From an uncultured Eubacteriales bacterium (GTDB lineage: Bacteria > Bacillota > Clostridia > Lachnospirales > Lachnospiraceae): DNA of 48,339 nt. Below are positions 20,583-33,633 of this stretch, piece after piece (positions within the stretch are counted from its first letter, which is position 1; each line of letters begins with the position of its first letter). Below the pieces are notes generated by a model, which had not been told where the DNA came from, did not search any database, and saw only the letters and a program-made list of their open reading frames with translations. The translations under genes and the position numbers were made by a program. Location: contig ONHA01000030.1 of assembly GCA_900317515.1 (NCBI GenBank), positions 1-48,339 on the forward strand. The letters are read 5' to 3'.

Positions 20583-22832
20583 ATGAGTTATATTTTTATT
20601 TCCTACTCAAGAAAGAATTCGGACATCGTGGATTCGTTTGCCGGGCGGCTCAGAACTGCCGGGTATGAGATCTGGCTGGACAGATCCGGTTCCGGCACAG
20701 GCATTCCCTTCTCCACAAAATGGTTCGAGGTCATCAAGGAGGCTCTTTACCTCTCCGCCGGCGCCATTATTTTTAAATCGGAGTACTGGCTGGCCTCCGG
20801 CCCCTGCAGCGAGGAGTTTTCACTCATAAAGAGCTGCAGCATGCCCTACCTGGAGCTTGATCCGGCCGATGTCAGTTCGGATCCCGACGCCGCCTTCGCA
20901 AAGTTCAGGCAATTTTTTATAAACCAGGTGCAGACTTCCGAAAATGCAAACCGCACCAGTCTCTTCTCGCATGCCTATGAGCTGAAGTCCGGCGTGGATC
21001 CCTACCAGCTTATCGAGCATCCCGGCGGCCTCGGCGCCTCACTGCGCTATCTGGCTGTCGATCTGCCCCAGCTGACCGCCCGGATGACAAAAGAACGCTA
21101 CGACAAGCTCTGCCCCGAGCTCTATGACTATATGCTCAAATACCTTGGCTTTGCAAAAAAAATCACGCGGGGCCGGATAGCCAAAAGACTTCTGGGCTTT
21201 TTGATCGCGGCCGCCTCGCTTGTCCTCCTGCTGTCCGTACCGCTTGCCCTTGCGCAGGGATCAAAGGAAAACTGGGAAACCTATGCCGGTCAGGCTCTCT
21301 CGGGAAAGATAGCTTCTCTGCGCAATATCGATCCTGTCGCCGCAATCAATACGGCAGAAAGTATGGATGATTCCTATCTGTCGGTCACATCGTACTATTC
21401 TCTCTCCATGAATGCGGTGAGACTCCTCGATGCCCGGCTTCCGGACAGGGTCCTCTGTGCGGATGACAGCGATTACTCTGCGTTTTCCGCGGCAAGTACT
21501 GTCTCAAGCAGTCCTCTTTTCGATCTCAAACTATCCGGCACCTCCGGAAGCCTCATCTTCACCGATCTGTCCTCCGGTGTCTGCCGGACGCTGAACACGC
21601 CTTCGCCGGTCGATCATTTCGCCTGGAGTACTGACGGAAAAATGCTGCTCTTCTCGGCGGGCAGCAGAATATATCTCTGCAGCCCCGGAAAGAGGCTGGC
21701 GCCGATACAGCTTTCGGAGAATTTTGAGCCTGTCAGGGAACTTAAATTTGTAGAATCAGACGGTTTGACGTATGCTGCCGCCCTCACAGAGCATGATACA
21801 CTCCTTATGTGGGAATCTCCTTTCCCGGAGAAGCTCTCTTCCCGCAGAGATATCAATTACGGTATTTTCCTCGATGATGATACCGTCGTCTATACCGACG
21901 GAAGTGATATCATTATAAGAGAGGCAGACACCGAGACCGTATTTACGCCGTATCCGGACCGGACGATCAAATCGCCCTCCTGGTCGGTGTCCGATGACGG
22001 GAAGAAGATTGCCGTGCTTGCAGAAGGAGACTCCGACACGCTGATATCCGTCATCTCCCTCACGGACGGATCTGTCTGCACCGAAGTACAACCGGCTGTC
22101 ACAGCAACCGCCCTCGCCTTCAGCGATGACGGCCGCTCTTTATACGCCTCCGCCTTCGGCTGCGGCATCATGTGTATCGATACCGCTTCCGGGGAGGTTG
22201 CCTGCGGCACCGAGGAAATGTATTTTCAGAACATCGCCCGGTACGGAAAAAGATGGGTCCTCATAGATTACAACGGAGCTGCCGTCATATTTGACAGCCA
22301 GCTTCAGAAAATACTCGATGCCGGATCGGTAAATCAGGTCTTCATGCCTGCCTTCTCACTGGCTGTAAACGCCGATACAGGGTATCTCTACACCGCAAAC
22401 CGCGGCGGCGCGTCCACCTTCGGATGCTCAAGATTCAATCTCAATACCGGGGAAATCAATCTGTTTATCGTACCCAGGCTTTCAAAAATTGATTCCAACA
22501 CTGCCGTGGGACTCTCGGATGACGGCGCCTTTGTCGCCTTCGGTTACCCGGACGGCACTGTCCGGGTCTACGAGCAGGAGCATATGTATCTTGTCTATGA
22601 GAGACGCTGTGCGGCCGAGTCGGTCTCCGCACTCAAATTCTCTGCGGACAATACGACAATTCGTGTTCTTGGTGAATCCGGCAATATTTACAGCGCAGAG
22701 CTGCCGCTGTACGAACTCATGACAGGTGATGCGAGTGCTGCTGCAAACTGGGCTGCCATGAAGGAGCAGCTGACAGATCTCAGGGATACCTATTATGACG
22801 GCATAAGTCCTCTTTTTCGGGAACAGTCATGA
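20583..22832 (+). CDS. TIR-domain, single-TM, WD40-like beta-propeller protein
   Basis: 749 residues. The N-terminal TIR domain is clear: box 1 YIFISYSRKNSDIVDSFAGR, then GYEIWLDRSG and a C-x-x-E element (Cys75-Glu78 in GPCSEEF) where TIR NADases carry the catalytic Glu. A linker to residue 200 is followed by one membrane helix (about 203-224) after KKITRGRIAKR, predicting a cytosolic TIR. Then comes a helical stretch with DPVAAINTAESM typical before WD40 arrays, and propeller blades (FAWSTDGKMLLFSAG, LAFSDDGRSLYASAFG, VGLSDDGAFVAFGYPDGTV). The stop of the partner gene is 3 bases upstream, so the pair is translationally coupled. Prokaryotic TIRs usually hydrolyse NAD+ or make cyclic ADP-ribose signals in defence; that role here is inference. 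Confidence 0.82.
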   Translation: MSYIFISYSRKNSDIVDSFAGRLRTAGYEIWLDRSGSGTGIPFSTKWFEVIKEALYLSAGAIIFKSEYWLASGPCSEEFSLIKSCSMPYLELDPADVSSDPDAAFAKFRQFFINQVQTSENANRTSLFSHAYELKSGVDPYQLIEHPGGLGASLRYLAVDLPQLTARMTKERYDKLCPELYDYMLKYLGFAKKITRGRIAKRLLGFLIAAASLVLLLSVPLALAQGSKENWETYAGQALSGKIASLRNIDPVAAINTAESMDDSYLSVTSYYSLSMNAVRLLDARLPDRVLCADDSDYSAFSAASTVSSSPLFDLKLSGTSGSLIFTDLSSGVCRTLNTPSPVDHFAWSTDGKMLLFSAGSRIYLCSPGKRLAPIQLSENFEPVRELKFVESDGLTYAAALTEHDTLLMWESPFPEKLSSRRDINYGIFLDDDTVVYTDGSDIIIREADTETVFTPYPDRTIKSPSWSVSDDGKKIAVLAEGDSDTLISVISLTDGSVCTEVQPAVTATALAFSDDGRSLYASAFGCGIMCIDTASGEVACGTEEMYFQNIARYGKRWVLIDYNGAAVIFDSQLQKILDAGSVNQVFMPAFSLAVNADTGYLYTANRGGASTFGCSRFNLNTGEINLFIVPRLSKIDSNTAVGLSDDGAFVAFGYPDGTVRVYEQEHMYLVYERRCAAESVSALKFSADNTTIRVLGESGNIYSAELPLYELMTGDASAAANWAAMKEQLTDLRDTYYDGISPLFREQS

Positions 22833-25369: not shown

Positions 25370-25987
25370 ATGAATCTCATCTATCTTGCCCCCTATACCC
25401 TGCCGGAAGGCGAAAAGGCACACACATATGAGCATGCGCTCGGCCGCCGGCTCCTAAGCCTCGGCCTTAAGGAGCTTTTCGGCCTTGACGTCACGCCGGA
25501 ATGGCTTGATGCGAATATCCGCACGCAGAAAAGCGGCAAGCCCTTCATTTCGGGCCTGCCGCATATCCATTACAATATAAGCCACTGCGCGGGGATGGTC
25601 GCCTGCGTCTTCGCGGACTCTCCGGTCGGCGTCGACGTCGAGAAGATCCGCCCCGTCAAGGACAATCTCATCGCCCGCGTCCTGACCGGGGACGAGAGAG
25701 CGTTTCTCTCCCGCGTATCCGCCGATGAGGCCTCCCGCGCGGAGTGGTTCACCCGCTTCTGGACCCTCAAGGAGAGTTACCTCAAGTACACCGGTGCCGG
25801 GCTTTCGGGTTCCCTTCAGTCGGTCTCTTTCCGATTTGAGGAGCATTTTTCCGAAAATGAACCCCGCATCACCTGCTCTGACCCATCCGTCACCCTGTAT
25901 CAGGTGCCTCTTTCTGACGGGATCATCCTATCCGCCTGCGCAGGGTCAAAGGAGCCCTTTTCGCTGCGCTCTGTCAGTCTTCCTTAA
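25370..25987 (+). CDS. 4'-phosphopantetheinyl transferase, Sfp type
   Basis: 205 residues. Family motifs: [30 protein letters not shown] (metal-binding Asp and Glu) and [16 protein letters not shown] (catalytic Glu/Lys). It transfers the phosphopantetheine arm of CoA to a carrier protein. With no NRPS or PKS genes in the window it may serve fatty-acid ACP or a distant cluster. Its 3' end overlaps the convergent cysK gene by 14 bases. Confidence 0.93.
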
Positions 25988-26909
25988 AGAGCGGCGTCGA
26001 ATAGTACCGGTCGCCGCTGTCCGGGAGGATCGCGACGATCACCTTTCCTACATTTTCCGGCTTTTTGGCGAGCTCGATCGCCGCATGAAGAGCCGCCCCC
26101 GAGGAGATTCCGACCAGGATCCCCTCTTTTTTTGCGAGGAGCTTTGCGCCGGCAAAGGCGTCCGCATTCGTGACTCTGACGATTCCGTCATAGATCTTCG
26201 TGTTCAGGACCTCCGGCACGAAGCCCGCGCCGATCCCCTGGATCTTATGCCCGCCGGCACGGCCCTCGGAGAGCACCGGCGAATCGTCCGGCTCCACCGC
26301 ATAAACCTTCACATCCGGGTTCTGCTCCTTTAAGTACTCGCCAACGCCGGTCAGCGTGCCGCCCGTGCCCACGCCGGCGACGAAGATATCGACCTTGCCG
26401 TCCGTATCCCGCCAGATCTCCGGGCCCGTCCCCGCTCTGTGGGCTGCCGGGTTGGCCGGGTTCACGAACTGGCCCGGGATGAAGCTTCCCTCTATCTCCC
26501 CGGCGAGCTCCTCGGCCTTCGCGATCGCGCCTTTCATGCCCTTCGCGCCTTCCGTGAGGACCAGCTCCGCACCGTAGGCCTTCAGGATGTTCCTGCGCTC
26601 GACGCTCATGGTCTCCGGCATGGTCAGGATGATGCGGTAGCCCTTGGCCGCCGCGGCGGCGGCGAGGCCGATTCCCGTATTGCCGGACGTCGGCTCGATG
26701 ATTACCGAGCCGGCCTTGAGCAGACCCTTTTCCTCCGCATCCTCGATCATGGCCTTCGCGATGCGGTCCTTCACGGACCCTGCCGGATTAAAGTACTCCA
26801 GCTTGACAAGCACGGTCGCCTTCAGTTCCTCCGCTTTCTCGATATTCACCACCTCGACGAGGGGTGTATTTCCGACCAGTTCCTGTGTTCCCTTATAAAT
26901 CTTAGACAT
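25974..26909 (-). CDS. cysK: Cysteine synthase A (O-acetylserine sulfhydrylase)
   Basis: 311 residues, the full length for CysK. The PLP lysine is Lys47 in [12 protein letters not shown]; the substrate loop [11 protein letters not shown], the phosphate cup [13 protein letters not shown] and the C-terminal GISSGAAL are all intact. It makes cysteine from O-acetylserine and sulfide. The start follows GGGAGGAAGGA, 26 bases after the metY stop, so the two form one operon controlled by the leader at 28261-28500. Confidence 0.96.
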
Positions 26910-26935: not shown

Positions 26936-28216
26936 TTATATTGCGTCAAATCCCTTTGTGAGATCCGCAATGATATCGTCGATGTGCTCCGTCCCGATGG
27001 AGAGCCGGATCGTGCTCGGCCGGATCCCCTGGTCCAGAAGCTCCTCCTCCGTAAGCTGCGAGTGGGTCGTGGACGCCGGATGGATCACCAGGCTCTTCAC
27101 GTCCGCCACGTTGGCGAGCAGGGAGAAAATCTCCAGGTTGTCGATGAATTTCCAGGCCTCCTCCTGACCGCCCTTCACATCAAATGTGAAAATGGAACCG
27201 CCCCCGTTCGGGAAATACCGCTCATAGAGCGCATGGTCCGGATGCTCCGGGAGAGACGGATGGTTGACTTTGTCCACCTTCGGGTGATTTTTAAGGAACT
27301 CCACAACCTTCTTTGTATTTTCCGCATGGCGCTCCAGCCTGAGGGAGAGGGTCTCGACGCCCTGCAGCAGCAGAAATGCGTTGAACGGGGAGATCGCGGC
27401 TCCGGTGTCGCGGAGCAGGATCGCGCGGATGTAGGTGACAAATGCAGCCGGCCCCACCGCGTCGTAGAAGGAGACCCCGTGGTAGCTCGGGTTCGGGGCG
27501 GCGATGTTCGGGTATTTCCCGCTCGCGCGCCAGTCGAATTTTCCGGATTCCACGATGATGCCGCCGAGCGTCGTGCCGTGGCCGCCGATGAACTTGGTCG
27601 CCGAGTGGACCACGATGTCCGCGCCGTGCTCGATCGGGCGGATGAGGTAGGGGGTTCCGAAGGTGTTGTCGATCACGACCGGGATGCCGTGCTTATGGGC
27701 GATCTCCGCGACCGCGTCGATGTCCGGGATATCGCTGTTGGGGTTGCCGAGGGTCTCGAGGAAGATCGCCCGGGTGTCATCCGTGATGGCCGCCTCAACC
27801 TCTGCGAGGTCATGAATGTTGACGAATGTTGTACGAATACCGTATTGAGGGAGGGTATGCGCAAGGAGGTTGAAGCTGCCGCCGTAGATCGTCTTCTGTG
27901 CGACGATGTGGCCGCCGTTTGCGGCCAGGGCCTCTATCGTGTAGCTGATGGCCGCCGCGCCCGACGCGACCGCCAGGGCTGCGCTGCCGCCTTCGAGTGC
28001 CGCAAGTCTCTTCTCCAGGACTTCCTGGGTGGAGTTGGTGAGGCGCCCGTAGATGTTGCCGGCATCGGCCAGACCGAAGCGGTCCGCCGCGTGCTGACTG
28101 TTTCTGAAGACATAGGATGTGGTCTGGTAGATCGGGACCGCACGGGCGTCCGTTGCGGGATCCGGCTGTTCCTGTCCGACGTGCAGCTGTAAGGTTTCAA
28201 ATTTATATTCGCTCAT
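26936..28216 (-). CDS. metY: O-acetylhomoserine sulfhydrylase (MetY-type)
   Basis: 426 residues of the Cys/Met-metabolism PLP family, at the length typical of MetY rather than MetB. The N-terminus [20 protein letters not shown] and the insertion [11 protein letters not shown]-like block after [10 protein letters not shown] are MetY features; the PLP lysine is in [15 protein letters not shown]. It makes homocysteine from O-acetylhomoserine and sulfide. The first structural gene of metY-cysK. The start follows AAAAAGGAGAACAATC. The 290-base leader contains a small ORF and a terminator. Confidence 0.95.
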
Positions 28217-28260: not shown

Positions 28261-28301
28261 AAAAAACTGCCCGGAAGTTTCTGAATCGAAAACTCCCGGG
28301 C
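28261..28301 (-). terminator. Leader terminator (attenuator) of metY-cysK
   Basis: On the minus strand, GCCCGGGAGTTT (28301-28290) pairs over 12 bases, with one G-T wobble, with AAACTTCCGGGC (28280-28269), then AGTTTTTT. It ends 45 bases before the metY start. The 5' arm GCCCGGGAG is exactly complementary to CTCCCGGGC inside the upstream leader ORF (28386-28378), a mutually exclusive antiterminator. Confidence 0.88.
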
Positions 28302-28322
28302 ACTTGGCATATGGAGCGATGG

Positions 28323-28436
28323 TTACTTACATCGGACCGTCACGAGGCGCATGGATGCCGCCCCGGCCAATTTACCTGCCCGGGAGATACACATTCGACA
28401 CCACATGAGATCATTCTGTCTGTTTGCTCCGAACAT
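28323..28436 (-). CDS. Cys/Met/Trp-rich leader peptide of metY-cysK
   Basis: A 37-codon ORF with a strong AAAGGAGG site 8 bases before the ATG. Its product begins MFGANRQ and contains the cluster MWCRMC at residues 11-16, then ISRAGKLAG and a VRCK C-terminus: three Cys, four Met and one Trp in 37 residues. The terminator follows 21 bases after the stop. The codons just after the Cys cluster (TCC CGG GC) form the antiterminator arm. Its layout is that of trp- or his-type leader peptides: stalling for lack of charged tRNA(Cys) or tRNA(Met) would let the antiterminator form. Too short for standard gene callers; the peptide itself probably has no other function. Confidence 0.75.
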   Translation of the reverse strand: MFGANRQNDLMWCRMCISRAGKLAGAASMRLVTVRCK

Positions 28437-28467
28437 ATCCTGCGCCTCCTTTCTCTGAACTGATAAG

Positions 28468-28500
28468 AGAATACCACTATTCACCTACTGTGTCAATAGG
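28468..28500 (-). promoter_or_regulatory. metY-cysK promoter overlapped by an Rrf2-type operator
   Basis: On the minus strand: TTGACA (28496-28491), 17-base spacer, TATTCT (28473-28468). The operator CCTATTGACACAGTAGG (28500-28484) covers the -35 box. The same 17-mer, with one or a few changes, overlaps the sufC and rrf2 promoters at 33135 and 33187. It begins 4 bases beyond the sufU stop. Confidence 0.75.
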
Positions 28501-28503
28501 TTT

Positions 28504-30108
<1,605 letters not shown>

Positions 30109-30112
<4 letters not shown>

Positions 30113-33231: not shown

Positions 33232-33633
33232 ATGATCACAACCAGAGGGCGCTACGCGGTCCGCGTCCTTCTTGATCTCGCGGAAAATAATACCGGCAGC
33301 TATATTCCCTTAAAGGACATCGCGGCCCGGCAGAGCATTTCCAAAAAATATCTGGAAATCATCGTAAAAGACATGGTCGCCGGCGGCCTCTTAATCGGTG
33401 CGAGCGGCAAGGGCGGCGGCTACAGGCTGAGCCGCGCTCCGGAGGACTATGTGATCGGCGAGGTCCTCGAGCTCATGGAGGGACCGCTCGCTCCGGTCTC
33501 CTGCCTTGCCGGCACGGCCGCCCCGTGCCCCAGGGCCGCATCCTGCGAGACGCTCCCCCTGTGGGCCGAATACGACAAGCTCACCCATGATTTTTTCTAC
33601 GGGAAACGCCTTTCCGATCTTCTCCGAAGCTGA
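33232..33633 (+). CDS. Rrf2-family transcriptional regulator, IscR-like
   Basis: 133 residues. The winged helix occupies 1-70 (ITTRGRYAVRVLLDLAEN, ISKKYLEIIVKDMVAGGLL, GKGGGYRLSR). Cys91, Cys99 and Cys105 have nearly the spacing of the [2Fe-2S] ligands of E. coli IscR (92, 98, 104), so it probably senses Fe-S status. CymR, the cysteine regulator of the same family, lacks these. It is divergent from the suf operon, and the operator common to suf, metY-cysK and its own promoter makes it the likely regulator of all three. The start follows GGGAGGTAAACGACT. Confidence 0.88.
   Translation: MITTRGRYAVRVLLDLAENNTGSYIPLKDIAARQSISKKYLEIIVKDMVAGGLLIGASGKGGGYRLSRAPEDYVIGEVLELMEGPLAPVSCLAGTAAPCPRAASCETLPLWAEYDKLTHDFFYGKRLSDLLRS

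Follow-up and report, generated by a model that had tools for sequence, protein, structure and literature searches.

Upstream of metY in the 48,339-nt stretch analysed here (the window), the minus strand between sufU, which ends at 28504, and metY, which starts at 28216, carries a leader element, raising the question of what this RNA senses and how it might control the genes behind it. RNA control of sulfur genes in Firmicutes is usually credited to T-box and SAM riboswitches. The leader region had no match in Rfam, T-box and SAM models included, and a T-box or SAM riboswitch was rejected at this site on those grounds; elsewhere in the window's genome there were five T-box matches, three of them above cut-off, and one SAM riboswitch. 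The first-pass annotation had proposed leader-peptide attenuation, with a segment of the ORF acting as antiterminator. This proposal is supported in its anatomy, family conservation, covariation of the helices P1, P1b and P2, Cys reading frame, codon choice with Cys and Met enrichment, and sulfur regulon, and folding at successive ribosome positions agrees with it in most copies. Accordingly, we favor the reading that the leader is a ribosome-mediated transcription attenuator that senses the supply of charged tRNA-Cys, and probably of tRNA-Met as well, and put its probability at roughly 0.85.

Parts of the leader in the window

All parts of the element lie on the minus strand. The leader opens with a sigma-70-type promoter (28468-28496), consisting of TTGACA (28496-28491), a 17-nt spacer and TATTCT (28473-28468), and agreeing with the consensus at 10 of 12 positions. 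The first-pass annotation had named this promoter, together with a ribosome-binding site and a 37-codon ORF, and all three are present. The promoter call is weak taken alone, because one promoter-like site was found in the window leader and shuffles already lead one to expect 0.5; among relatives' leaders, 65 of 76 had a promoter-like site 10-90 nt ahead of the start codon, compared with 27% of mononucleotide shuffles. The Shine-Dalgarno sequence AAAGGAGG (28445-28452), which was scored together with the start codon, is followed by the leader ORF (28323-28436), 37 codons plus a TAA stop, MFGANRQNDLMWCRMCISRAGKLAGAASMRLVTVRCK, whose peptide opens MFGANRQNDLMWCRMCISRAG and ends RCK. Codon counts in the family mark a control region within this ORF (28395-28406), in which the control codons ATG TGG TGT (28406-28398) are followed by a near-invariant CGA (28397-28395). 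The MWCRMC cluster described earlier is there, but its second Cys is not kept in the family, the nearest relative having Arg, and the conserved peptide core is M-(C/W)-C-R-M-x-x-S-R-A.

Covariation and folding place the 5' strand of the antiterminator helix P1, CTCCCGGGCA (28377-28386, codons I-S-R-A), inside the ORF. This strand is the exact reverse complement of TGCCCGGGAG (28293-28302), a common segment, likewise placed by covariation and folding, that forms both the 3' strand of P1 and the 5' arm of the terminator; the complementarity seen earlier is real, and extends over 10 nt rather than 9. When the ORF was shuffled 20,000 times by mononucleotide, 0.065% of the shuffles contained an exact complement of at least 9 nt to the terminator arm, and 0.015% contained one of 10 nt. 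Chance complementarity was ruled out by these shuffles and by covariation in 81 copies of the leader, and conservation in relatives is stronger proof than the shuffle statistic. Helix P1b pairs TTGGC (28366-28370, from covariation and folding) with GCCAA (28304-28308, from covariation), and hairpin P2 (28344-28364, from covariation and folding), which pairs GGGGCG (28364-28359) with CGCCTC (28349-28344), lies inside P1. The minimum-energy fold adds a hairpin P3 (28317-28334) around the ORF stop codon, CGATG with CATCG, which varies within the family when sequences are folded individually. The intrinsic terminator (28261-28302) consists of a stem-loop (28302-28268) and a T tract (28266-28261), the stem being followed by GTTTTTTG, which includes six T; a terminator with a U-tract had been reported here before, and its stem has 14 pairs, not 12. 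Downstream lie metY (26936-28216), encoding O-acetylhomoserine/O-acetylserine sulfhydrylase and the first gene under the putative control of the leader, and cysK (25974-26909), encoding cysteine synthase A, which is the second; they matched TIGR01326 and TIGR01139, respectively, above cut-off, and both are on the minus strand.

Other features of the window were seen in passing. An aminotransferase-like gene between the suf genes (29041-30112, minus strand), by eye sufS from its position and sequence, is split into overlapping frames of 217 and 293 aa, and G032 has one open frame of 416 aa at the matching place; either a true frameshift or a fault of the assembly may underlie the split. Also by eye, an Rrf2-family-like regulator gene (33232-33633, plus strand) is divergent from the suf operon, and a 749-aa ORF (20583-22832, plus strand) has a TIR-like start followed by WD40-like repeats.

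Conservation of the leader among Clostridia

A protein search with the leader peptide yielded only two convincing copies and one marginal copy among 61 genomes, and we therefore built an RNA covariance model, R1, from 26 leaders; its E-values are circular for those 26 source sequences, and 55 of the 81 distinct copies lie outside the model. R1 matched 14 of 41 genomes of the genus, and 25 of 392, 13 of 391 and 5 of 398 genomes sampled from the order, class and phylum, respectively, every count including the window's genome, and the class and phylum samples each sharing one further genome with an earlier sample. The copies come from sampled relatives, and many of the genomes are metagenome assemblies; the window's genome has one copy and others have up to four, and cultured carriers include Lachnospiraceae bacterium AC2029 and XBB2008. 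Judged from these matches, the leader family is spread over many gut and rumen Clostridia of several families. Since metY-type genes occur in 40 of the 41 genus genomes, and R1 gave no match in 27 of the 41, some of them incomplete, the element is patchy within the genus, allowing for incomplete assemblies. Among 80 metY loci from species genomes, R1 matched directly upstream of metY in 30, only five of which are independent because the other 25 had gone into the model; directly upstream of the remaining 50 there was no R1 match, and 20 of these 50 also had no Rfam match. When 24 leader peptides were compared with protein family libraries, none matched NCBIfam at E 1, and the matches to Pfam were single and weak (best E 0.028), each made by one member.

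A uORF of a different appearance was seen upstream of metY at locus L071 (about 2794-2917). This uORF, MSYALINKSYEYMCSNRMCCCRIGSCRMCCCDMCNDCID, contains 10 Cys codons; neither a match to R1 nor a terminator was found for it, and it may be a Cys leader of a different kind. Cys-rich uORFs were also seen at L095 and L040.

The near-invariant core of the family reads TGT TGT CGA ATG nnn nnC TCC CGG GCA, then ATGGCC GGGGCG and CGCCTC, with GCCAT..TGCCCGGGAG before the terminator, and its helices are P1 (CTCCCGGGCA with the terminator arm), P1b (ATGGC with GCCAT) and P2 (GGGGCG with CGCCTC). Aligned leaders bear out the covarying stems anticipated by the first-pass annotation, with compensatory changes in P1, P1b and P2 that far exceed those of shuffled and slid controls. 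The 26 leaders were aligned with MAFFT, without fitting to the structure, and 13 of the 21 pairs changed on both sides, compared with 3.7 in shuffles (0 of 500 as high) and 6-10 in slid controls, and 92.1% of cells were paired, against 31-52% in the slid versions. The alignments of 81 and 11 copies were fitted to the structure and lean towards it; the first gave compensatory changes in 16 of 21 pairs and in 96 cells (shuffles, 9.3 and 22.0; slides, 21-40 cells), and the second, made of copies outside the model, gave them in 8 of 21 pairs, compared with 2.7 in shuffles. Examples are CTCTCAGACA with TGTCTGGGAG in L067, and TTCCCGGACT with GGTCCGGGAG in L089. Antiterminator and terminator are mutually exclusive through their one common arm, and this arrangement is conserved in the family. 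Terminator pairs were 62% paired on the MAFFT alignment and gave no covariation signal there; they are misaligned because the loop is variable, and terminators were therefore judged sequence by sequence. A T tract follows the terminator arm in 77 of 80 copies, and the tract searched for was absent in L049, L067 and L124, the first of which also has no Cys at the control site.

The best-scored pair of Shine-Dalgarno sequence and start codon was in frame with the Cys codons for 76 of 80 copies, with two copies in each of the other frames (one of the 81 copies had no scored start), and in all 11 further copies from the genus. Three of the exceptions (L118, L119 and L045) still read a Cys cluster, the SRA strand of the antiterminator having slipped to another frame, and in the fourth (L108) it is the strand after SRA that has slipped. 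In L132, a stop codon occupies the S position of SRA, exactly before the antiterminator strand, indicating that the peptide beyond RM is not needed. We therefore conclude that the ORF is kept for its Cys codons, and an incidental ORF is ruled out by the frame test; the SRA...AGA residues mainly mirror RNA pairing.

Cys was present at the last two control codons in 58 and 67 of 81 copies, and Met at the first two in 32 and 51, over backgrounds in the preceding residues of 1.7% for Cys and 3.0% for Met, and this enrichment was limited to the four codons that abut P1. At least one Cys occurred among these four codons in 79 of 81 copies, a conservation on which the first-pass proposal turned, and at least one Met in 71. 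The enrichment of both residues in the control codons makes a dual Cys/Met input plausible, as judged from codon content. The Cys codons of the leaders were UGU in 125 cases and UGC in 17, with 49.5 UGU expected from flanking genes; in the window's 33 long ORFs, 15% of Cys residues are encoded by UGU and 4.4% of Arg residues by CGA. Many copies (e.g., L079 and L062) have their last Cys at codon 15, and the window has it at codon 13.

The first gene after the 81 distinct copies was metY in 50 and another gene in 31, of which 18 were scanned against family libraries; sulfur amino-acid genes account for 11 of the 18. The scanned genes encode cysK-type enzymes (2), an O-acetylhomoserine sulfhydrylase-like paralogue (1), cystathionine gamma-synthase/lyase-type enzymes (3), MetQ/NlpA-type proteins (4), a MetN-type ATPase (1), polar amino-acid ABC permeases (4) and binding proteins (2), and a PepT-like peptidase (1). 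Cystine transporter models were among the matches of the polar amino-acid ABC genes, but not as the best match, and most of the scanned genes pass Pfam or domain cut-offs but not NCBIfam equivalog cut-offs, which places them by type and not by exact substrate. Among the 11 further genus copies, one precedes a gene of the glutamate-cysteine ligase family (PF04107) and two precede NlpA-type genes. The copies at L122 and L124 were seen to precede a PepT-like M20 peptidase gene, just after what by eye is an Rrf2-family-like regulator gene.

Ribosome position and alternative readings

Toeprinting places the leading edge of a stalled ribosome about 13 nt past the first base of the A-site codon. With this reach, we folded the RNA left free by the ribosome in the 77 copies that have a T tract. 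When the last Cys codon occupies the A site, the ribosome stops barely short of covering P1, and in this position the antiterminator exceeded 0.5 in 59 of 77 copies and the terminator in 16. The corresponding numbers were 42 and 31 with CGA in the A site, 19 and 53 with AUG, and 1 and 73 one codon past AUG, which is three codons past the last Cys. Between the last Cys and this latter position, 55 of 77 copies switched from antiterminator to terminator, L079 being a strong switcher and the window not among them, and reaches of 11 and 15 nt gave 57 and 45 switching copies, respectively. Shuffling the P1 strand left the antiterminator in 9 of 77. When folded without a ribosome, the antiterminator won in 45 of 77 copies and the terminator in 31, at equilibrium. 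In the window, the terminator wins at equilibrium at every ribosome position tried, even at Cys: the antiterminator (-44 to -45 kcal/mol) stays complete up to a length of about 30 nt beyond the beginning of the common arm, after which it loses out to the terminator (-51 to -52 kcal/mol), so that a kinetic action, with trapping of the antiterminator, must be assumed there. In most copies the P1 strand begins 40-70 nt before the ORF stop codon is reached, so that a terminating ribosome leaves P1 uncovered, and the OFF state must depend on timing.

We infer from these findings how stalling, termination and read-through might be coupled to charged tRNA, in which direction the leader would respond, and that Met may be an input. 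Transcription would begin some 20 nt ahead of the leader ORF, with a ribosome translating the leader behind the RNA polymerase. With Cys-tRNA scarce, a Cys codon would stay unread in the A site of the waiting ribosome, whose front, some 13 nt on, would halt just short of CTCCCGGGCA, and the free strand would pair with the 5' arm of the terminator to form P1, with P1b outside the bulge and P2 inside. Formation of P1 would block the terminator, and metY-cysK would be transcribed. With Cys-tRNA plentiful, the ribosome would pass over CTCCCGGGCA, and the terminator would form.

The CGA-AUG that follows the Cys codons (28397-28392 in the window) is retained by 75 of 81 copies, which makes it more invariant than any Cys codon; its residues R and M are found in 76 and 78. 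Such strong nucleotide conservation, together with the compensatory changes in the enclosed hairpin P2, would suit a riboswitch-like RNA that senses a metabolite or a protein and carries the ORF incidentally. We consider this very improbable, given that start codons keep to the Cys frame (76 of 80 and 11 of 11), that a shift of the RNA strand (L118, L119 and L045) leaves the frame with the Cys codons, that Cys and Met are enriched solely in the four codons abutting P1, and that the window is without an Rfam match. The near invariance of RM could also be read as the mark of a nascent peptide, M-C-C-R-M, that arrests the ribosome in response to a small molecule; but the Arg is nearly always CGA, at 4.4% a rare Arg codon in the window's genes, indicating that the nucleotides or the codon, and not the residue, are selected, and the ribosome comes to RM only once it has passed the site at which a stall is predicted to count, which makes peptide-mediated arrest very improbable. 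As for the RNA, CGAAUG and UCCCGG are able to pair with CCGGGGCGUUCG, with 83.8% of cells paired in the 26 leaders compared with 33-44% in slid versions, and covariation of this pairing in the same leaders was not beyond shuffles; the base of such a protector hairpin would be covered by a stalled ribosome. When folded before the arm is made, CGAAUG pairs downstream in 41 of 80 copies, and the P2 loop of 24 of 80 contains a complement of CGAATG that has no more than one G-U, compared with 1.65 expected in mononucleotide shuffles. The protector hairpin may account for some, not all, of the CGA-AUG conservation, and CGA-AUG stays although its proposed pairing partner often changes. A pairing of CGAATG with CATTTG before the terminator arm, proposed by eye, was rejected, as CATTTG varies with CGAATG unchanged.

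The site between sufU and metY is where a terminator of the suf operon would be expected, and the element could in principle be such a constitutive terminator, with a chance ORF and fortuitous complementarity; its recurrence before metY, cysK and transporter genes in other genomes and its own promoter-like site (65 of 76) speak against this, and covariation contradicts it already, so we give this explanation almost no credence. A serious competitor, to which we assign a little short of even odds, is that the same attenuator senses cysteine alone and that the Met codons are kept for RNA reasons. The control codons include at least one Cys in 79 of 81 copies, and by folding a ribosome waiting at the Met of RM would already favor the terminator (53 versus 19 of 77), consistent with Cys as sole input, but at least one Met occurs among the four control codons in 71 of 81 copies, and at the last two positions Met takes the place of Cys in 8 and 6 of 81 copies, respectively, a change of more than one base. 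We also offer, tentatively and as having rather less than an even chance, a two-amino-acid reading, in which a Clostridia-wide attenuator would integrate Met and Cys through ordered codons, Met first and Cys last, abutting the antiterminator strand. It would coordinate a dispersed thiol regulon of metY, cysK, cystathionine gamma-synthase/lyase-type, MetQ/MetN-type and polar amino-acid transporter genes, and once a glutamate-cysteine ligase-like gene, and the leader coding sequence, CGA-AUG...UCC-CGG-GCA...GCC-GGG-GCG-UUC-GG, would be an RNA of three states: protector, antiterminator and terminator.

Related leaders and significance

What is new in the proposed tRNA-reading attenuator is the family, the unusual topology of the antiterminator and the probable dual input; the trp-like logic was already known. 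Like the trp and his attenuators of E. coli and Salmonella (trp is outlined in part in PMC1183508), the leader has a translated ORF, control codons for the pathway, and mutually exclusive antiterminator and terminator with a common arm. Unlike in trp and his, the antiterminator strand of the Clostridia leader would directly adjoin the front of a ribosome that has stalled on the control codons, and the antiterminator is a long-range helix enclosing one or two hairpins; the trp attenuator terminates without translation, whereas the Clostridia leader without a ribosome folds mainly to the read-through form (45 of 77, at equilibrium). T-box and S-box (SAM-I) leaders also exert transcription control of amino-acid or sulfur genes in Firmicutes.

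The first-pass annotation knew of no clostridial example, and we likewise found no Cys/Met leader attenuator described in Clostridia in the open-licence literature. In mycobacteria, Cys leader peptides are said, going by the title of a 2020 paper by Canestrari et al. that PMC9094748 cites, to be cysteine-responsive and to come from leaderless ORFs. Short Cys-rich ORFs precede cysteine genes in Mycobacterium, Propionibacterium and Bifidobacterium, and these actinobacterial leaders, as the account in PMC1262725 presents them, carry their Cys runs close to the stop codon and lack conserved terminator hairpins, unlike the Clostridia leader. The nearest description found is that of uORFC-8-2, upstream of cysS in Rhodobacterales, a uORF that in the passages devoted to it carries a tandem pair of Cys codons around codons 14-15 and has an intrinsic terminator downstream, and for which ribosome-mediated attenuation has been proposed (PMC8632094). 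Compared by description only, the Clostridia leader resembles it in tandem Cys near codon 14-15 and a terminator thereafter; uORFC-8-2 differs in belonging to Alphaproteobacteria, in being linked to cysS only and in preferring UGC, and Met codons go unmentioned in those same passages (PMC8632094). In bacilli, His leader peptides before hisS and hisZ, where attenuation replaces the T-box according to the description in PMC2965389, are likewise leader-peptide attenuation in Firmicutes, likened by that description, for another amino acid and other genes.

A covariance model is now to hand for a family absent from Rfam, and a match to the leader gives the annotation of Met/Cys transporters from gut and rumen bacteria a rule that can be tested. 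The patchy presence of the leader raises the question of why some relatives keep it and others gave no match. If the attenuator reading holds, a ribosome-reading leader would, across several Clostridia families and in different genomes, stand ahead of enzyme and importer genes and in one case of a thiol ligase-like gene, and would be a compact case in which nearly every codon is used for reading and folding alike.
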